From positions 1 through 64,000 of the forward strand of contig CALYAA010000006.1 in the NCBI GenBank assembly GCA_944393385.1: 64,000 nt of DNA, read 5' to 3'. The stretch is from an uncultured Clostridia bacterium (GTDB lineage: Bacteria; Bacillota; Clostridia; TANB77; CAG-508). Position 1 is the stretch's first letter. Every line of letters begins with the position of its first letter. The translations under genes were made by a program, and so were the position numbers. Below are positions 45,043 to 56,984 of this stretch, piece by piece. The notes under the pieces are model-generated. The model saw only the letters and a list, made by a program, of their open reading frames with translations. It was not told the DNA's origin and did not search any database.

Positions 45043-47799
45043 ATGAGTATATTTGGAAAAATATTTAAAAGTTATAGTGAAAAAGAAGTAAAAAGAATAA
45101 TGCCAATAGTAGAAAAAATAAATTCATTAGAATCAGAAATACAAAAACTAACTGATGAAGAACTAAAAAACAAAACTACAGAATTTAAAGAACAATTAAA
45201 ACAAGGAAAAACATTAGATGATATATTACCAGAAGCATTTGCTGTTGTAAGAGAAGCATCAAAAAGAGTATTAGGAATGAGACACTTTGATGTACAATTA
45301 ATAGGAGGAATCATTCTACACCAAGGAAGAATAGCAGAAATGAAAACAGGTGAAGGAAAAACACTTGTAGCAACACTACCAGTATATCTAAATGCACTAA
45401 CAGGAAAAGGAGTACATGTAATTACTGTAAATGACTATCTAGCAAAAAGAGACAGTGAATGGATGGGAAAACTATACAAATTCATGGGACTATCAGTTGG
45501 ACTAGTAATAGCAGGAATGTCTCCAAAAGACAAGCAACAAGCTTATAATTGTGATATAACATATGGAACCAATAACGAATTTGGATTTGACTATTTAAGA
45601 GACAACATGGTAATTTACAAAGAGCAATTAGTACAAAGAGGATTAGAATATGCCATAGTAGACGAAATTGATAGTATATTAATAGATGAAGCAAGAACAC
45701 CACTTATAATATCAGGAAGAGCAAACCAATCATCAGAATTATACAAAAAAGCAAATGACTTTGTAAAAAGACTAACACCAAAAATAATAGTTGAAGAAGA
45801 CATTAAAGATGAAGCCCAAGCAGAAGACAACGAAAACTATGACTATATAGTAGACCTAAAAGCAAAATCAGCTTCACTAACACAAAAGGGAATCAAAAAA
45901 GCAGAACAAGCATTTAATCTAGAAAACTTTAATGATATAGAAAACTCTACAATAGTACACCATGTAAATCAAGCACTAAGAGCACATGGAATAATGAAAA
46001 AAGACATAGACTATATCGTAAAAGATGGAGAAGTATTAATAGTAGACGAATTTACAGGACGTATAATGTATGGAAGAAGATACAACAATGGTTTACACCA
46101 AGCAATAGAAGCAAAAGAAGGAGTAAAAATAGCAGACGAATCAAAAACACTAGCAACAATAACCTTCCAAAACTACTTTAGAATGTATAACAAACTAGCA
46201 GGTATGACAGGTACAGCCATGACAGAAGAAGCAGAATTCGAAGAAATATACAACTTAGATGTAATATCAATACCAACAAACAAGCCAATGATTAGAAAAG
46301 ACCAAAATGACGCAATATACAAAAATGAAAAAGCAAAATTCAATGCCATTGTACAAAGCATAAAAGAAAGCCATGAAAAAGGACAACCAGTTCTAGTAGG
46401 TACAGTATCAATAGAAAAATCAGAAAAATTAAGTAACATACTAAAAAAAGAAGGAATAAAACACGAAGTATTAAATGCTAAATATCACGAAAAAGAAGCG
46501 GAAATAATAGCACAAGCAGGAAAATTCGGAGCAGTAACAATAGCAACAAACATGGCAGGACGTGGTACAGACATAATGCTAGGAGGAAACAGTGAATATT
46601 TAGCAAAACAAGAAATGAGAAAAATGAAAATTTCAGACAACTTAATAGAAGAAGCAAACACATTTTATGACACAGAAGACGAAGAAATACTAAATGCTAG
46701 AAAAACATTTAAAGAACTAGAAGAAAAATATGACAAAGAAATAAAAAAAGAAAAAGAAAAAGTAATTACTGTAGGTGGGCTAAAAATAATAGGAACAGAA
46801 AGACATGAATCAAGAAGAATAGACAACCAGTTAAGAGGACGTAGTGGACGTCAAGGAGACCCAGGAGAATCAAAATTCTATATAGGTCTAGATGACGACC
46901 TAATGAAAATCTTTGGCGGAGAAATGATTACAAAAGTATATAACACAATAGGAATGGACGAAAATGTACCTATAGAAAACAAAATAATAAGTAATGCAGT
47001 AGAATCAGCTCAAAAAAGAGTTGAAGGAAGAAACTTCAGCATCAGAAAAAATGTATTAAAATATGATGATGTAATGAATGCACAAAGAGAAATAATATAC
47101 AAACAAAGAAGACAAGTACTAGATGGAGAAAACATAAATGAAAATATTTTAAACATGATAAAATCACTTGCAGAAGAAGTAGTAATGCAACAATTTGCAG
47201 GAGAAAACGAAGTAAATGTAGAATCACTAAATACAAACATAAAAAATATCTTTGGACTTGATATAAGTGATTTTGTAAAAGAAAATTCAGAAAACGCTAA
47301 TGCCATAATAGAAAAATTAGAAGAAACAGCACTTGCAGAATATGCAAAAAAAGAAGAAGAAGTTGGAAGTGCACAATTAAGAGAATTAGAAAGAGTTGTA
47401 ATGCTAAAAGTTGTTGACCAAAAATGGATGGACCACATAGACGCAATGGATGAACTAAAAGACGGAATAGGACTAAGAGCATATGGACAACAAGATCCAG
47501 TTGTAAAATACAGAATTGAAGGAATGGACATGTTTGACGAAATGATATTAGACATTAAACATGATGTGGTACAATTGTTAATGAATCTACGTAAAAACGA
47601 AGAAGTAAAACGTCAAGAAACAGCAAAAATAACAGGTGTAGCATTACAAAACTTAAAAAATCTAGATGCAGACCAAAGCAAAGTACAAACTCAAATAAAT
47701 AAAACAGTTGTAAATCAAGGCCCAAAAGTTGGAAGAAACGACCCTTGCCCATGTGGAAGTGGCAAAAAGTATAAGAACTGTTGTGGTAGAAATGCTTAA
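45043..47799 (+). CDS. secA: Preprotein translocase ATPase SecA
   Basis: The 918-residue protein has the complete SecA set: Walker [24 protein letters not shown], the preprotein cross-linking region, the [10 protein letters not shown] and [11 protein letters not shown] motifs of the second nucleotide-binding fold, and the helical scaffold. A C-terminal SEC-C zinc motif ([16 protein letters not shown]) follows, which binds SecB or ribosomes in other bacteria. It drives protein export through SecYEG. AAGGA is 12 nt before the ATG. An integrative element begins directly downstream. Confidence 0.98.
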
Positions 47800-47845
47800 A
47801 ACTCTTGAAAAATAAGAATTTTAAAAAAGCAAAAAATTGAAAATT

Positions 47846-47904
47846 TTGTCCACGGTGGACAAATGTCCACGATTTGTCCACATAAATTAAATCTTGTGGA
47901 CAAA
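47846..47904. repeat. Cluster of GTCCAC repeats, candidate att/integrase-binding region
   Basis: Five copies of (T)TGTCCAC lie in 59 bases: plus orientation at 47846, 47864 and 47873, minus orientation (GTGGACAA) at 47855 and 47896. The first two form the palindrome GTCCACGGTGGAC. It sits between secA and the integrase. Confidence 0.65.
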
Positions 47905-47969
47905 TAAGAAGAAAAGCTTTATATATCAATAAAAACTGTGTGAACAAATTAATGGATAGATAATTATTA

Positions 47970-48000
47970 GATGTCAGCATTTGATATGCTGGCATCTTTC
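47970..48000 (+). terminator. Terminator between secA and the integrase
   Basis: GATGTCAGCA (47970-47979) and TGCTGGCATC (47987-47996) pair with one T-G wobble, followed by TTTC. Confidence 0.7.
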
Positions 48001-48038: not shown

Positions 48039-49349
48039 ATGGTAAGTGTAAGAAAAAGAGGAAAAGTTTATGAATACCGATTTGAAACAGGAATGGTTGA
48101 TGGAAAAAGAAAATGGATTACGAAGTCTGGATATTCATCAAAATCAGAAGCTTTTAAAGAGGGAGCAAAAGCATACAACGAATTTTATTATAGTGGAACT
48201 AAAATGCAACTTAAAGAAAATATGTCTTATGCTGATTTTTTAGATTATTGGATTGACAATTACGCTAACTTAAATTTACATTATTCAACAACAGTATCGT
48301 ATATAAACATTATTAAAAATCATGTCAAACCGAAAATAGGATTTTATAAATTATGGCAATTAGACACTAGAATATTACAAGAGTTTATAAATAAAATATA
48401 TGTCGAATATGCTTTTTCTAAAAATTATATGGCAAGTATTTTGAAAGTTGTTAAAGGGTCTTTAAAATATGCTTGTTATACATTGAATTATATTAATACT
48501 AACCCAGCAGAAAATGTGCATGCACCAAGAATAGATAAAATTAACAAAGATCCTGCACATATATTTACTCAAGAGGAAATAGAAAGAATATTAGACAGAT
48601 TTAAGGGAACACACTCGATTTATTACTCTTTTTTAACTGCCTACTATACAGGTTTAAGAGTATCTGAAGTATATGGCTTAACTTGGGATTGTGTAGATTT
48701 TGAGAAAAAAACAATAACTATCAATAAAAATATCATAAAGAAGAATCAGTATGGTTTACCAAAAAGAAAAAATATAACTAAAGGTAACTCTGTTTGTGTT
48801 TGGTATTACGGAGAGTGTAAGAATCCACAAAGTAGAAGAACTATATCTATTGGTGATACATTAGTAAATGCATTAAAAGAATATAAAAAAGAACAAGAAG
48901 AAAATCAAAAATTTTATGGAGATTCATATCTTTATTATTATGAGAAAAGAGTACTAAATGATATTACCAAAAAAGAAGAAATAAAGTTAGTTGAAGCAAA
49001 AGGAGAACTAGAAGTGGCTTTACCGAAAGCAGAATTAGTCTTTGTTAAAGGAAATGGACAATTTTTAGGAACTGATTCACCTAAATATGCTTTTAAAGTA
49101 ATACATTATGAATTAGGAATTAACAGTAGATTTCATGATTTTAGAGACACACATGCAACTAGATTAATTGAAAGTGGTGCTGACATTAAAGCAGTGTCGA
49201 AAAGGTTAGGACATTCAAGCATACAAACGACATATAATATTTATGTTAAAGTTACAAATAAAATGGAAACTGATACCGTAAACAAATTTGAAGAATATAC
49301 TAATAGTTTAAATATTCCTCAAACATTAGAAATTCCATATCAAGTATAA
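48039..49349 (+). CDS. int: Tyrosine recombinase/integrase of the element
   Basis: The 436-residue protein has an N-terminal arm-binding domain (SVRKRGKVYEYRFETG), a SAM-like core-binding domain and a catalytic domain with Arg in TGLRVSEVYGLTW, HDFRDTHATR (HxxR), LGHSSIQTTYNIY (His and nucleophile Tyr). A long insertion of about 60 residues lies between the Arg and HxxR boxes. AAAAGGAG precedes the ATG. It should integrate and excise the element; no excisionase gene is visible beside it. A terminator follows. Confidence 0.95.
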   Translation: MVSVRKRGKVYEYRFETGMVDGKRKWITKSGYSSKSEAFKEGAKAYNEFYYSGTKMQLKENMSYADFLDYWIDNYANLNLHYSTTVSYINIIKNHVKPKIGFYKLWQLDTRILQEFINKIYVEYAFSKNYMASILKVVKGSLKYACYTLNYINTNPAENVHAPRIDKINKDPAHIFTQEEIERILDRFKGTHSIYYSFLTAYYTGLRVSEVYGLTWDCVDFEKKTITINKNIIKKNQYGLPKRKNITKGNSVCVWYYGECKNPQSRRTISIGDTLVNALKEYKKEQEENQKFYGDSYLYYYEKRVLNDITKKEEIKLVEAKGELEVALPKAELVFVKGNGQFLGTDSPKYAFKVIHYELGINSRFHDFRDTHATRLIESGADIKAVSKRLGHSSIQTTYNIYVKVTNKMETDTVNKFEEYTNSLNIPQTLEIPYQV

Positions 49350-49487: not shown

Positions 49488-50105
49488 ATGAAAAAAACAA
49501 TTTATGATTTTGAAAAGAAATATGATGTTCAAGATGAACTTTTAAATGAGGGAGCTTTAAAAGGACTGGATGAAAGAACATTGCATGAAACAATAAAGGC
49601 AATGTTAATAAATACAATTAAAGATTGTATTAAATATGAAAATTATATGGATCCAGATATGACAGAGATAACTAATTTGCTAATTAAAGAAAATAAAACA
49701 GAAGAAGAATTAAGAAAAATTAGAAATGCACAAGATAGATTAAGGAATTCTTTACATTTTGCACAAATTTCTGAAGATAGTTTGTATATATTATTACGCA
49801 AAATGCTATCATCAGAAGAAATAAAACATTGTTTCAAACAAGAGATACCAGAGATGTATAGAAATTTATATTATATGGTAGACTTAGAAGAAGAGATAGC
49901 AGAAACTTTGACATTCATTTTTGAAGAACTTTATGAAGCACCTAGCTATAAAGATATTTGCATTACTATAAATGAAAATATTAAGGATTTTGTAGAAAAT
50001 GCAGAGGAGTATGTAGAAGATATACAAAATCACGAGTTATATGAACAGTTTGTTAGCTTTAGAAATAGTATAAAAAATGAAGAAAAGGAGAATATCAATG
50101 AGTGA
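49488..50105 (+). CDS. Unknown acidic protein of the ParAB operon
   Basis: I do not recognise the family. The 205-residue protein is acidic, predicted mostly alpha-helical, with no signal or membrane segment. It has a strong AAGGAGG site and overlaps parA by eight bases (ATGAGTGA), so the three genes are translationally coupled. Position suggests a regulator or partner of the partition or replication module. No DNA-binding motif is evident. Confidence 0.75.
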   Translation: MKKTIYDFEKKYDVQDELLNEGALKGLDERTLHETIKAMLINTIKDCIKYENYMDPDMTEITNLLIKENKTEEELRKIRNAQDRLRNSLHFAQISEDSLYILLRKMLSSEEIKHCFKQEIPEMYRNLYYMVDLEEEIAETLTFIFEELYEAPSYKDICITINENIKDFVENAEEYVEDIQNHELYEQFVSFRNSIKNEEKENINE

Positions 50106-50916
50106 GATAATTGCAATAGCAAATCAAAAAGGTGGTGTAGGAAAAACTACAACCACTTTTTCTTTAGGTGTTGCTTTAAGAAAGCAAGGCAATAAAGTTC
50201 TACTCATAGATGCAGATCCTCAGGGAGATTTAACTACTTGTATGGGATACTATGACCAAGATAAATTACAAAATACCATTGCTACTTTGATGTCTGATAC
50301 AATATATGATAATGAAGTAGATGCAAAAAAAGCTATTCTTCATCATAAAGAGGGAATAGATTTAATTCCTGCAAATTTAGATTTATCAGCAATAGAGTTT
50401 TCACTTGTAAATGCAATGAGTAGAGAGTTCACACTTAAAAACTCAATAAGAGATATAAAAGATAATTATGATTATATTTTAATTGATTGTATGCCGAGCT
50501 TAGGAATGATAACAATAAATGCCTTAGCTTGTAGTGATAAAATTATAATTCCAGTTCAAGGAGAATATTTAGCAGCAAAAGGAATGGGACATTTATTAAA
50601 AACTGTAAGTAGAATTCATAAACAAATAAATCCTAATTTAAAGATAGGTGGAGTATTACTAACTCTTGTAGATAAAAGGACAAATTTATCTAAAGAAGTT
50701 AGAAATACCATAAATGAAAACTATGGACAGTTTGTAAAAATATATAATACAGAAATCCCAAAAGCTATCAATACGGCAAAGTCAACTTCTACTGGCAAAA
50801 GTATTTTTGAGTTTGATAAAAACAGTCCAGTAGCTTTAAGTTATAAAGAATTAGCAAAGGAGGTTTTAGATGATGAAAGAGCAAGAACAAAAAATGAAAC
50901 TTCCAAAGTTAGATGA
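50098..50916 (+). CDS. parA: ParA/Soj-type partition ATPase
   Basis: The 272-residue protein has the deviant Walker A KGGVGKTTTT with the signature Lys, DADPQGDLT, and LIDCMPSLG as Walker B. ParA binds DNA nonspecifically with ATP and moves ParB-bound parS sites. In integrative elements such pairs stabilise the excised circle. The frame is open from 50077, but ATG 50098 has AAAAGGAG 7 nt upstream and leads directly into SEIIAIANQKGG. It overlaps the upstream gene by 8 bases and parB by 47. Confidence 0.95.
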   Translation: MSEIIAIANQKGGVGKTTTTFSLGVALRKQGNKVLLIDADPQGDLTTCMGYYDQDKLQNTIATLMSDTIYDNEVDAKKAILHHKEGIDLIPANLDLSAIEFSLVNAMSREFTLKNSIRDIKDNYDYILIDCMPSLGMITINALACSDKIIIPVQGEYLAAKGMGHLLKTVSRIHKQINPNLKIGGVLLTLVDKRTNLSKEVRNTINENYGQFVKIYNTEIPKAINTAKSTSTGKSIFEFDKNSPVALSYKELAKEVLDDERARTKNETSKVR

Positions 50917-51823
50917 TTTATTTACAAGTCAAGCTCAAAGAGATTATGAAAAAGCAGAAAAGGTAGAAGAAATTGATATTAGTAAAATATCAGATTTTCC
51001 AAATCATCCTTTTAAAGTTAAAGATGATGATAAAATGAAAGAAATGGTAAAAAGTATAAAACAATATGGAGTTATATTGCCTGTAATAGTTAGACCAAAA
51101 GATGATGGAACTTATGAAATGATTTCTGGACATCGAAGAAAAAGAGCTTGTGAGTTAGCAGGAGTAAAACAGATAAGATCTATTGTAAAAGATTTATCAG
51201 ATGATGAAGCTACAATCCTTATGGTAGATAGTAATATTCAAAGAGAAGAAATACTGCCTAGTGAAAAGGCATTTGCATATAAAATGAAACTTGAAGCAAT
51301 GAAACATCAAGGAAAGAGAATTGATTTATTGGAGGAAGAAACTTCCGACCCAATGGGTTGGAAGTTAGAAAGTGCTAATAAGTTAGGAAAAGAAGTAGGC
51401 GAAAGTATGACTAATATTAGAAGATATATTCGTCTAACACATCTTATTCCAGAACTTTTAGAACAAGTAGATTTAAAAAGAATTGCTTTTAGACCAGCAG
51501 TAGAACTTTCATATTTAAGTGAAGATAATCAATATGTAGTACAAAATATATTTGAGTTTGATGAAGTTACACCTTCTTTAAGTCAAGCAATAAGATTAAA
51601 GAAACTTGAACAAGAGGGAAAATTAACAGAAGAAAAAATAGAAGAAATTTTAGGTCAAGAAAAGCCTAATCAGAAAGAATTTATAAAAATACACAATGAA
51701 AGAATAGATAAATATATACCACAAAAAATAAAGGAATCTGGAAAAATAGAAGATTTTATTATTCAATGTGTGGAAGAACATAACAAAAGAGAAAGACTAA
51801 AACAAGAAAGAAATGCCAGATAA
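50870..51823 (+). CDS. parB: ParB/Spo0J-type centromere-binding protein
   Basis: The 317-residue protein has the ParB N-terminal CTPase domain: ISDFPNHPFKV, IKQYGVILPVIVRP, ISGHRRKRACELAG (GHRR nucleotide motif) and DSNIQREEILPSEKAFA. A helix-turn-helix region follows (GESMTNIRRYIRLTHL) and a charged C-terminus. It starts within parA behind AAAGGAGG. The likely binding site is the repeat pair just after its stop. Confidence 0.93.
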   Translation: MMKEQEQKMKLPKLDDLFTSQAQRDYEKAEKVEEIDISKISDFPNHPFKVKDDDKMKEMVKSIKQYGVILPVIVRPKDDGTYEMISGHRRKRACELAGVKQIRSIVKDLSDDEATILMVDSNIQREEILPSEKAFAYKMKLEAMKHQGKRIDLLEEETSDPMGWKLESANKLGKEVGESMTNIRRYIRLTHLIPELLEQVDLKRIAFRPAVELSYLSEDNQYVVQNIFEFDEVTPSLSQAIRLKKLEQEGKLTEEKIEEILGQEKPNQKEFIKIHNERIDKYIPQKIKESGKIEDFIIQCVEEHNKRERLKQERNAR

Positions 51824-52784: not shown

Positions 52785-55700
52785 ATGATAAAAAAGTCAA
52801 AATATAAAAGAATTTTAGCTATTATTTTATTATTAGTTACAATGCTAAGTGTAGCACAACCTATATTTGCAGCGTCTGGAACAGGCAAATGGGTTGGTGG
52901 ACAATATGCTTCATATATTAGAACAACAGATAATGCTGATTCTGAATATGGAATTTTAATAAGAAAATTAATAAATTATAATACAGGAGAAAAAAGAACT
53001 GTATTTTGTGCAGAACATGGAGTAGATTTTAAAACTGATGTAGTATATAACGGAAGTTACTATACACCAGTTAAAGCAGATGTGAGAAAAGCTTGTAAAA
53101 TAGCATATCTAGGATGGTATAAAGATAAAGGCAATTATGTTGTAGATGGTGGAATTTCAAATGCAGACAAAAAGCAATATGTTCTAGTTCAACAATATAT
53201 ATGGGAAGTATTAGGACAAACTAATGCTAGATTTTTAGATAGTGGAATTCAAGCTGAATATGAGGCTTTTAAATCTGAAATAGATAGAGAAATGGCTAAA
53301 ATAGAAACTAGACCAAGCTTTGATGGAACAACAATAAATGTTCAAGCAGGTGAAAGTAAAACAATAACTGACGCTAATGGTGTTTTAGCAAGTTACCCTA
53401 GCATAGATAAAACTACTAATGGAATTAGAATTACACACTCAAAAGGAAGTAATTCAATGACTATATTAGTAGATGAAAATACTACTTTAGAGAACTATAC
53501 AATAACAGATGCTCAATTTAAATCATGGGGTATGATTAAAAATGGAACAGAAGATAAAGACACAATGGTATTTTTTGAGTTCCAAGATGGAGTTCAAAAT
53601 CAATTATATTCATTATCTTATAATGATCCAATAACTTTAAGTGTAAGTTTAAATATAGAAAGCTTTGGAAAATTAGAACTTTCAAAATTAAACAAAGAAG
53701 GAGATTTAGTTCCAGGAGCTGTGTTCAAAGTTACAGGTCCAAATAATTATAGCAAAGAAGTAACTGTAACAGATGGAAAAATAACTTTAGACAAACTAAA
53801 AAAAGGCACTTATACAATAAAAGAAATATCTGCCCCTTATGGCTATCTTTTAGATACTAAAGCATATAATGTGGAAGTTAGAGTAAATCAAACAGCTACA
53901 CAAGCAGTTGTAAATTTTGAGCCAACAGGAACATTCACATTAGTTAAGAAAAATGCAGATAAATCAGAAAATTTAAAAGGTGCAGAATATAGAATATGGA
54001 ATGATAGTTATGATAAAACTTTTGTTACAAACGATGAAGGAGAAATAGTAGTAGAAGGACTAAAATTAGGAAAATATAATTACCAAGAAACAAAAGCACC
54101 AGAAGGTTACTTATTAGATGATACTGTATATTCATTTGAGCTAAAATATAAAGACCAAAATACAGCAGTTGTATTTGCATCAGTAGAAAGAACTGATAAT
54201 GAGCCAACAGGAAAAATATCTATAATTAAAAAAGATATAAAAACAGGCTCTACAACACAGGGAGATGCAGTTTTTGAAGGTGCAGTATATAAAGTATATG
54301 CTAATGAAGATATATACAATAAAGCTAAAACTAAAAAGTTTTATTCTAAAGGAGATTTAGTAGCAACTAGAACTATGAATGACAAAGGAACAACAGAAGA
54401 TATAACGAATCTTCCTTTAGGTAAATATATAGTAAAAGAGGAAGTTGCACCTAAAGGCTATATGTTAGACACAAAAGAATATGAAGTTAATTTAACATAT
54501 AAAGACCAACACGAAGAAATAATCTCAAATACAACAACAAGTTTAGAAGATGTAAAGAAAATGGGACTTCATATTTTTAAATCTGGAATAAAAGAAAATT
54601 CTGGAGTAACTCCTGGATTAGCAGGAGCAGAATTTACGATAAAATTAAATGCAGATGTAGAAAAGGCTTATGAACAAGGCTATACTTATGAAGAAGTATG
54701 GAATGGAATTGATGAAGATGGAAATAAAGTAACAGTAAATGAAAAAAGAGTTGCAGAGGCTCAAAAAATAGCTCCAACCTATGAGATAATAACAACAGAT
54801 GAAAATGGAGATGCATATACTCAAAATAAATTACCTTTTGGAAAGTATATTGTAAAAGAAACAAAGACTCCAGAAGATTATGAGACATCAGTTGATTTTA
54901 CTTTTTCTATTACAGAAGATGAATCTGAAGTCGTGGAAATAGCAAAGAAAACAAAGCATATAGTAGTAAATAATGAACAATTAGAAACCTATATCAAACT
55001 TATAAAGAAAGACTTAAAAACCAATAAACCAGTAACATTAAATTCTACAACATTTGAAATTAAAGCAACAGAGAATATTTATGACAGAGCTACAAACAAA
55101 ATATTATTCAAAAAGGGAGAAAAAATTTCTCAAAAAGTTGGAAATACAACATACACATCATTTACAACTAATGCAGATAATATTGTAGTTCTAGATAATT
55201 CATATAATTCTGAAAATGACAATAAAGCTGAGGTTACAACACCATTAAAATTGCCAGTTGGAAGTTATGAAATAACTGAAATAAAAATTCCTGAGGGCTT
55301 TTTACAATTAGATAAACCTGTTACATTTGAAATAAAAAACATTAAAGATTATGACACCGATAAAGATGGAGATTTCATAAAAGAAATAGTCATCAAAAAT
55401 GAGCAACCAACAGGAACAATTAAATTAGATAAAAGTATTGCCATAAGAGAAAATGTAGATACATCATTAGTAGATATATCGGATTTATCTGGTTTAGAAT
55501 TTAAACTAACTGCAAAAGAAGATATAATTGATAAAGCAGACGGTAGTATTATATATAAGCAAGGACAAGAAATAAAAACATATAATCTAACTAAAGATGG
55601 CAAACTTACAATTAGTGATTTGCCAATGGGAATTTATGAAATTGAAGAAACAAAAACTTTAGATGGATTAGTTTTAAATACAACAAAATATGAAGTTAAA

Positions 55701-56984
55701 TTTGAACAAAAAGATACAATAACAAAAATTTATGAGCAAAAACTAGATGTAGAAAATGATACAACATTAGTGGAATTTTCTAAAACTGATATAACTGGAG
55801 ATAAAGAATTGTCAGGTGCAAAACTAACTGTTTTAGATAGTGAAGGAAATATTATAGATACATGGACTTCTACTGAAGAAACTCATAAAATTGAGGGCTT
55901 AGCAGTAGGAAAAGAATACACGCTAAAAGAAGAAATTGCACCAGATGGTTATGTTATAGCTACAGAAATAAAATTCAAAGTAGAAGATACAAGTGAAATT
56001 CAAAAAGTTACTATGAAAGATAAAATAGTAGAAGTTTCAAAAGAAGATATTTCAGGTAAAGAAATAGAAGGAGCTAAATTACAAGTATTAGACAAAGATG
56101 GAAATATAATAGATGAGTGGATTTCAGAAAAGGAAGCACACAAAGTAAAAGGATTAAAAGAAAATGAAACTTATATATTGCATGAAGAATTAGCAGTTGG
56201 AAACTATGTAAAGGCAACAGATATTGAATTTCTAGTTTCAACAGATAAAGAAACCCAAAAAATTACAATGATAGATAAATTAGTAGAAGTAACAAAAACA
56301 GATTTAACAACAGGAGAAGAACTTGAAGGAGCAGAATTAGAAGTTACAGATGAAGAAGGTAATGTAATAGACAAATGGACTTCTACAAAAGAGCCACATC
56401 AAGTAAAAGGTCTTGAAGAAGGTAAAACATACATACTAAAAGAAACAACAGCACCTTATGGCTACGAAATCACTGAAGAAATAAAATTTACTGTTACAAC
56501 AGATAAAGATACTCAAAAAGTAGAAATGAAAGATATGCCTATCTTAAAAAATGTAAAAGTAATTAAAGTAGATTCTGAAACAAAAGAAACAATTAAAGAT
56601 AAATTTACTTTTGTAATTTATGAAGATTCAGAATGTACTAAATTAATCAAAGAAGTCCAATCTGATAAAGAAAATGGAACAGCTATATTTGAAGATTTGA
56701 GATATGGTACTTATTACATAAAAGAAACAAAAGCTCCAACAGGTTATGAGTTGTCTAATAGAGTTGTAAAAGTTGAAATAAACGACAAAGGAATATTTGT
56801 AGACGATAAACAAATAGAAGAAAAAGAAGATACAATAGAATTTACATTTGAAAACAAAAAAATAGAAGTACCTAAAACTGGAGATGATAGTAATTTAAAA
56901 CTATTTGCAGGATTAGGATTACTTTCTTTATTAGGTATTACATATATCATAATACATAATCATAAGAAAAATAAGGATGAGTAA
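52785..56984 (+). CDS. Thioester-domain, SpaA/Cna-B repeat adhesin with sortase signal
   Basis: The 1399-residue protein has a signal peptide (cleavage near AQPIFA), an N-terminal thioester domain (Cys in TVFCAEHG and Gln in VLVQQYIWEVL, which form an internal bond in such adhesins) to about residue 280, and then about ten SpaA/Cna-B-type beta-sandwich repeats, each with a G-x-Y-x-(I/L)-x-E strand such as GTYTIKEISAP. Repeats 7-9 are close copies of each other. The C-terminus has VPKTGDD, a hydrophobic helix and a KKNKDE tail, a variant sortase signal. It can bind covalently to a surface and be linked to the wall. In a mobile element it may hold donor and recipient cells together, which is inference. 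AAAGGAGG precedes the ATG. Confidence 0.92.
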   Translation: MIKKSKYKRILAIILLLVTMLSVAQPIFAASGTGKWVGGQYASYIRTTDNADSEYGILIRKLINYNTGEKRTVFCAEHGVDFKTDVVYNGSYYTPVKADVRKACKIAYLGWYKDKGNYVVDGGISNADKKQYVLVQQYIWEVLGQTNARFLDSGIQAEYEAFKSEIDREMAKIETRPSFDGTTINVQAGESKTITDANGVLASYPSIDKTTNGIRITHSKGSNSMTILVDENTTLENYTITDAQFKSWGMIKNGTEDKDTMVFFEFQDGVQNQLYSLSYNDPITLSVSLNIESFGKLELSKLNKEGDLVPGAVFKVTGPNNYSKEVTVTDGKITLDKLKKGTYTIKEISAPYGYLLDTKAYNVEVRVNQTATQAVVNFEPTGTFTLVKKNADKSENLKGAEYRIWNDSYDKTFVTNDEGEIVVEGLKLGKYNYQETKAPEGYLLDDTVYSFELKYKDQNTAVVFASVERTDNEPTGKISIIKKDIKTGSTTQGDAVFEGAVYKVYANEDIYNKAKTKKFYSKGDLVATRTMNDKGTTEDITNLPLGKYIVKEEVAPKGYMLDTKEYEVNLTYKDQHEEIISNTTTSLEDVKKMGLHIFKSGIKENSGVTPGLAGAEFTIKLNADVEKAYEQGYTYEEVWNGIDEDGNKVTVNEKRVAEAQKIAPTYEIITTDENGDAYTQNKLPFGKYIVKETKTPEDYETSVDFTFSITEDESEVVEIAKKTKHIVVNNEQLETYIKLIKKDLKTNKPVTLNSTTFEIKATENIYDRATNKILFKKGEKISQKVGNTTYTSFTTNADNIVVLDNSYNSENDNKAEVTTPLKLPVGSYEITEIKIPEGFLQLDKPVTFEIKNIKDYDTDKDGDFIKEIVIKNEQPTGTIKLDKSIAIRENVDTSLVDISDLSGLEFKLTAKEDIIDKADGSIIYKQGQEIKTYNLTKDGKLTISDLPMGIYEIEETKTLDGLVLNTTKYEVKFEQKDTITKIYEQKLDVENDTTLVEFSKTDITGDKELSGAKLTVLDSEGNIIDTWTSTEETHKIEGLAVGKEYTLKEEIAPDGYVIATEIKFKVEDTSEIQKVTMKDKIVEVSKEDISGKEIEGAKLQVLDKDGNIIDEWISEKEAHKVKGLKENETYILHEELAVGNYVKATDIEFLVSTDKETQKITMIDKLVEVTKTDLTTGEELEGAELEVTDEEGNVIDKWTSTKEPHQVKGLEEGKTYILKETTAPYGYEITEEIKFTVTTDKDTQKVEMKDMPILKNVKVIKVDSETKETIKDKFTFVIYEDSECTKLIKEVQSDKENGTAIFEDLRYGTYYIKETKAPTGYELSNRVVKVEINDKGIFVDDKQIEEKEDTIEFTFENKKIEVPKTGDDSNLKLFAGLGLLSLLGITYIIIHNHKKNKDE

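Follow-up and report, generated by a model that had tools for sequence, protein, structure and literature searches.

What is the function of the cluster of short repeats that separates secA from a tyrosine integrase gene in this uncultured Clostridia bacterium? Within the window, i.e. the whole 64 000-nucleotide stretch that was analysed, the heptamer TGTCCAC occurs in five exact copies, three on the plus and two on the minus strand, spanning positions 47847–47902 between the secA stop (47799) and the integrase gene int (encoding Int1; 48039–49349, plus strand), whose product carries the Pfam domains PF00589 and PF14659. The initial annotation had described a single heptamer repeated five times in both orientations within 59 bases, and all five copies were recovered, starting at 47847, 47855, 47864, 47875 and 47896. 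It had offered arm-type integrase sites and a transfer or replication origin as explanations.

The repeat cluster and the secA junction

Copy 1 (47847–47853, plus strand) and the inverted copy 2 (47855–47861, minus strand) together form an odd palindrome reading TTTGTCCAC-G-GTGGACAAA. The palindrome noted earlier was thus confirmed as such, but its length was revised from 13 bp to 19 nt (47845–47863). Copies 3 (47864–47870) and 4 (47875–47881), both on the plus strand, lie 11 bp apart and constitute a direct pair present in most relatives, and copy 5 (47896–47902) is again inverted, on the minus strand. A degenerate distal copy, GTGAACA (47940–47946, minus strand), is intact as GTGGACA in three related loci (L234, L236 and L238). 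As read from the sequence, a terminator-like hairpin followed by a T run (47970–47999) lies between these arms and the integrase gene, and similar hairpins were found in L199 and L201.

The hexamer GTCCAC occurs nine times in the window compared with 4.8 expected from shuffled sequences (at least nine in 4 of 100 shuffles), five of the nine being located in the cluster. Across 60 sequences of 64 kb simulated with a Markov model, no heptamer with at least three G/C residues ever exceeded three copies per 59 nt, whereas the real window reaches five copies of one heptamer in 59 nt, and does so at the cluster only. The pattern TGTCCACNNTTTGTCCAC gave eight matches in 6 of the 210 genomes of the genus, and its reversed control gave none.

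The secA gene (45043–47799, plus strand, taken from the open reading frame list), the 3′ end of which is the integration target, encodes a protein that was matched in 53 of 55 relatives' genomes. Its SEC-C coding tail, CATGTGG..TGTTGTGG (47750–47786, plus strand), represents the core in the attL region and is duplicated at other element ends; these last ∼37 nt of secA are found in three further copies in the same genome, two on contig C28 and one on C34. On sequence grounds, the integrated element is placed as beginning within the last ∼37 nt of secA. The final SecA codons (47787–47799 in the window, and the equivalent positions in relatives) vary with the inserted element, with either a direct TAA or short tails such as KNA; because the last few codons differ in this way, the SecA C-terminus is apparently rewritten by the insertion. 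Within the open-access literature that was searched, no description was found of an element integrating at the 3′ end of secA.

Downstream of the integrase gene, the same contig encodes ParA and ParB (50077–51823, plus strand, assigned by Pfam), a SpaA-repeat surface protein, a 2206-aa helicase/methyltransferase-like protein, a relaxase (L031:3400–4797) and a T4SS coupling protein (T4SS-DNA_transf, L031:5767–7620), the last two 19–24 kb downstream. The surface protein (52785–56984) comprises 1399 aa with ten SpaA-type repeats. Relaxase and T4SS coupling protein thus occur together in one element, as in an ICE, in the portion that the contig holds. As the contig stops at 71733, in a sequence (L031 7660–7733) that resembles the 5′ end of a group II intron, it carries the left end of the element alone and the right end is absent from it.

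Among the examined loci, 97 of 146 tail sites had secA directly upstream and 49 did not, the 146 including repeat views of single sites in overlapping loci. Downstream sequence of 450 nt or more was available for 85 secA junctions, of which 19 combined an integrase N-terminus with the 11-bp TG pair and 51 lacked both; the integrase alone was present in 12, which have a single-site architecture, and the TG pair alone in three. In four genomes in which secA is followed by prfB, with release-factor domains confirmed by Pfam in one of the four, no GTCCAC was present in the next 330 nt. Genome G055 has the cluster behind secA with no integrase adjacent. The initial annotation had regarded a cluster in relatives lacking the element as counting against its reading, and G055 is the one genome that comes close to this case. 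The G055 sequence aligns to the left end of the window through the arms and the hairpin up to the ribosome-binding region of int, where the alignment stops; beyond this point there is a short reading fragment and then a putative hisS gene. Other integrase relatives in G055 were weak (best E 1e-8). Because its homology to the left end of the window halts at the int ribosome-binding region, the G055 cluster looks like a deletion remnant of an element. In another locus (L196, G026:C86), TGTCCAC-type arms lie beside an integrase broken at its N-terminus, within a 1955-nt stretch that holds no secA.

Arm repeats at the far ends of related elements

The initial annotation had proposed that matching repeats be sought at the far end of the element. 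The window's own right end lies off the contig, and such repeats were found in four relatives contained on single contigs (L400, L401, L402 and L403), in which either end carries a pair of TGTCCAC, the two pairs being separated by 6.7 to 12.3 kb (6.7 kb in L400). Each end of these four elements is flanked by a secA-tail core, intact or degenerate, and the far-end arms have no int start beside them. Repeats in both element arms near cores were thus seen in L400–L403, and also at right ends in the window's own genome. Right arms consist of an inverted-direct-direct triple with 8/11 spacing, which was detected at 37 of 52 tail copies (four of the 37 being low-complexity TATAT calls) as compared with 6.6% in shuffles, and these triples are mostly centred 151–154 or 142–143 nt before the core.

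In the window's own genome, one stretch is present in identical form at the ends of both contigs, C28 and C34. Read in the secA orientation, the two contigs together start with Int2, a second integrase preceded by an HTH_17 gene (L040:12549–12827), TGTCCAC arms and a core, continue with a unit that begins with TGTCGCC and is followed by a core, and close with a unit that begins with TGTCACC and ends in TGTCCAC-type arms, followed by a core and the chromosome. TGTCCAC right-end arms adjoin two of the three extra secA-tail copies, and the C28 end bearing Int2 and TGTCCAC arms (near 10.98–11.13 kb) is likely to be the right end of the window's element.

Some stacked units carry unlike motifs at their two ends, i.e. 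TGTCGCC/TGTTTGC in t26–t24 and t59–t60, TGTCACC/TGTCCAC in t24–t25, TGTCACC/TGTTGCC in t60–t61, TGTCAAC/TGTCCAC in t77–t78 and TGTCAAC/TGTCCAC-like in L213–L226. Some of these units have no integrase and others have one of the split class described below. The left arm of t77 has a further site, GTGGACA, which agrees with the right end, and unlike-ended elements may therefore carry two arm types. A unit of ∼250 nt between two cores (L221/L228, G227:C26) has its left arm fused to its right arm at a common TGTTTGC, apparently as the result of an internal deletion between the arms.

Arm motif and integrase N-terminus

Int1 is composed of an N-terminal arm domain (residues ∼1–52), a SAM-like core-binding domain and a catalytic domain, the last two assigned by Pfam. 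In the AlphaFold model, the arm domain comprises strands at residues 3–7, 10–20 and 23–32 and a helix at 35–52 (block pLDDT 87–96 over residues 1–50 of the domain model), with residues 14 and 26 in strands 2 and 3, respectively. This predicted topology of three strands and a helix agrees with the arm domain of Tn916-type integrases and the domain plan of the IntTn916 subgroup as given in PMC8138268. Pfam Arm-DNA-bind_4 was matched by 20 of 25 family members, with the window integrase below the cut-off. The best solved matches of the full model were Tn1549 Int, XerA and lambda Int. For the isolated arm domain, Foldseek/VIA listed no integrase and no significant solved relative, and a sequence-profile search against solved structures returned chance matches only. 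A scan of viral contigs revealed distant integrases only.

A scan of GTDB contigs provided 80 named integrase relatives, nearly all titled as metagenome-assembled genomes, of uncultured Clostridium, Clostridia, Bacilli, Erysipelotrichaceae and others. In 77 of the 80, a SEC-C tail lies no more than 330 nt upstream of the integrase, and the secA body was found upstream in 61 of the 70 relatives with at least 1 kb of upstream sequence. A fixed-rule caller assigned an arm motif in 77 of the 80; besides TGTCCAC, the motifs at the same secA site included TGTTTGC, TGTTCGC, TGTCGCC, TGACATC and more. Together with 24 full-length integrases from the genus, the covariation table contained 101 rows, corresponding to 64 unique combinations of N-terminus and motif and 16 motifs.

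Motif distance and N-terminal distance were correlated (Mantel r = 0.519, reached in 0 of 5000 permutations), and remained so once the effect of the catalytic domain had been removed (partial Mantel 0.484, 0 of 5000), whereas the converse test, of the catalytic domain beyond the N-terminus, gave 0.057 (1002 of 5000). Label permutation leaves some shared descent in these values, the catalytic-domain control being the main guard against it. The best single positions were 26 (partial 0.586) and 14 (0.450). Tryptophan at position 26, the residue of the window integrase, was accompanied by TGTCCAC (21) or TGACCAC (1) in all 22 unique W combinations, and phenylalanine by TGTTTGC (9) or TGTGTGC (2) in all 11 unique F combinations. 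R26 occurred with TGTTGCC (4) or TGTCGCC (1), Q26 with TGACATC (3), TGACAGC, TGTCAGC and TGTCATC, S26 with TGTCTAC (2) and C26 with TGTTTGT (1). Since Y26 goes with several motifs (five), residue 26 alone is not the full code; moreover, in unit t44–t45 (L090) an R26-type integrase is flanked by TGTTCGC-type arms. Of seven further integrases from genus loci outside the table, the genomes of which may overlap the named set, six fitted the classes and one had a new residue (P). Judged by covariation, the arm motif tracks the N-terminal arm-binding domain of the integrase, above all residue 26, also after correction for the catalytic domain, and it is by covariation only that site sequence was matched to arm-domain specificity. 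This joint variation of the repeat and a putative DNA-binding residue in the integrase points to a lock-and-key code that could be read.

Six elements, each on one contig and one of them spanning 92 kb, carry two divergent tyrosine integrases (L146, L158, L084/L085, L401, L402 and L403); in L400, the arm-domain search detected Int1 only. The HxxR box of Int1 reads HDFRDTH in all six, and that of Int2 reads YDLRG, with Tyr in place of His, in five of the six (for L158, the N-terminus of Int2 alone is in view). Residue 26 agrees between Int1 and Int2 in 6 of 6 elements (W, W, W, R, F and Y), which was equalled in 6 of 720 permutations, and the N-terminal identity of the two integrases was 0.679 within elements versus 0.587 between elements (3 of 720 permutations).

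Nine integrases near secA-tail cores are split into two overlapping frames (L010, L019, L095, L107, L116, L117, L149, L190 and L192). All nine share the sequence A AAA AAA AC, a −1 shift would be needed to join the frames, and in eight of the nine a 0-frame stop lies 13 nt past the start of the A run. These are candidates for a programmed −1 frameshift or transcript slippage between the core-binding and catalytic domains; the literature searched gave no obvious precedent.

Function of the cluster and relation to known systems

As the far-end repeats match in the relatives, the secA–prfB sites have no cluster and the motif covaries with the arm domain, the evidence favours the arm-type alternative of the initial annotation, and we consider it highly probable that the cluster consists of arm-type integrase sites. 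With equally high confidence, it can be assigned to a conjugative element inserted at the 3′ end of secA, of which it would form the left arm region, on the attL side.

A different role in replication or partition, as iterons, DnaA boxes or a parS site for the element's ParB, could be suggested by the ParA and ParB genes 2 kb downstream of the cluster and by two copies that read TTGTCCACA, a single mismatch from the DnaA box TTATCCACA. L400–L403, however, have the same arms at both ends, and no ParA/ParB relative was found in them; no TGTCCAC lies within parAB, the nearest being at 52897, so that the motif is neither confined to elements with ParB nor placed near parAB as a parS site or origin should be. 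Furthermore, the motif shifts to TGTTTGC, TGACATC and others with the integrase N-terminus, which is not expected of a host DnaA box. Because the motif is present at both ends, occurs in elements with no ParA/ParB found and changes with the integrase, the proposal of a transfer or replication origin was not sustained, and we regard such a site as extremely unlikely. The position of the cluster 140–190 nt upstream of int, where sites near the int start could serve both roles, would suit an operator through which a regulator or the integrase represses the int promoter. As a sole explanation this is very unlikely, given that in L400–L403 the same motif stands at the far end with no int start adjoining, and that the motif covaries with the arm domain of the integrase itself, but autoregulation may be a second function. 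Finally, the G055 cluster behind secA could be taken to indicate a native downstream feature of secA rather than a part of a mobile element. Its match to the left end of the window up to the int ribosome-binding region, the absence of the cluster in the four secA–prfB genomes, and the 51 of 85 junctions with neither TG pair nor integrase N-terminus against 19 with both leave this explanation barely credible.

With arm-type sites as the preferred reading, the three-stranded-sheet domain at the N-terminus of the integrase would bind TGTCCAC in the left arm and the corresponding copies within the right end. On the model of the lambda and Tn916 integrases, the same protein would bridge from the arms to the secA-tail core, and this bridging would control integration and excision. 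Since the arm motifs differ with a matching residue 26, each element would have its own key and share one chromosomal target. We tentatively propose, as a possibility short of an even chance, that the secA 3′ end is a common dock for a large family of elements, each of which uses a private arm key made up of a hypervariable 7-bp motif at its two ends and an arm domain to match, with one integrase or two cooperating divergent integrases (HxxR and YxxR) acting on the same arms.

The family resembles Tn916/Tn1549-type integrases in its domain plan, with a SAM-like core-binding domain, a catalytic domain and an arm domain for which three strands and a single helix are predicted, and Tn1549 Int was the best full-length fold match of the window integrase. 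Tn916-like transposons have low target specificity; unlike these, the present family is site-specific for the secA 3′ end, duplicates the coding tail and often has a second integrase. The arm-type P/P′ sites of lambda are short repeats in both arms that flank the core with fixed spacing, some of them inverted, and the secA-family repeats share all of these properties, but the site and arm-domain sequences are different and the motif varies between elements at one target. ICEs and CIMEs undergo tandem accretion at one attachment site, and several secA-site elements are likewise stacked between repeated cores; here the target is secA, and the stacked units have different arm motifs. In the Oenococcus prophages, the arm direct repeats and the N-terminus of the integrases IntF and IntB change together, according to PMC8074189; that case, as described there, involves a few phage types, compared with the 64 unique combinations, 16 motifs and single best residue of the secA family. 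Arm-type integrase sites are known as a kind, and what is new is the proposed family at secA, with its private keys and its paired integrases.

Should the covariation be due to contacts, the family would amount to a natural collection of arm domains paired with DNA motifs at a single target, in which the specificity code of such domains is directly testable. Private keys, if true, would allow elements to be stacked at one essential gene with none of them excising another, and could explain how many elements use a single essential gene as target without cross-talk.
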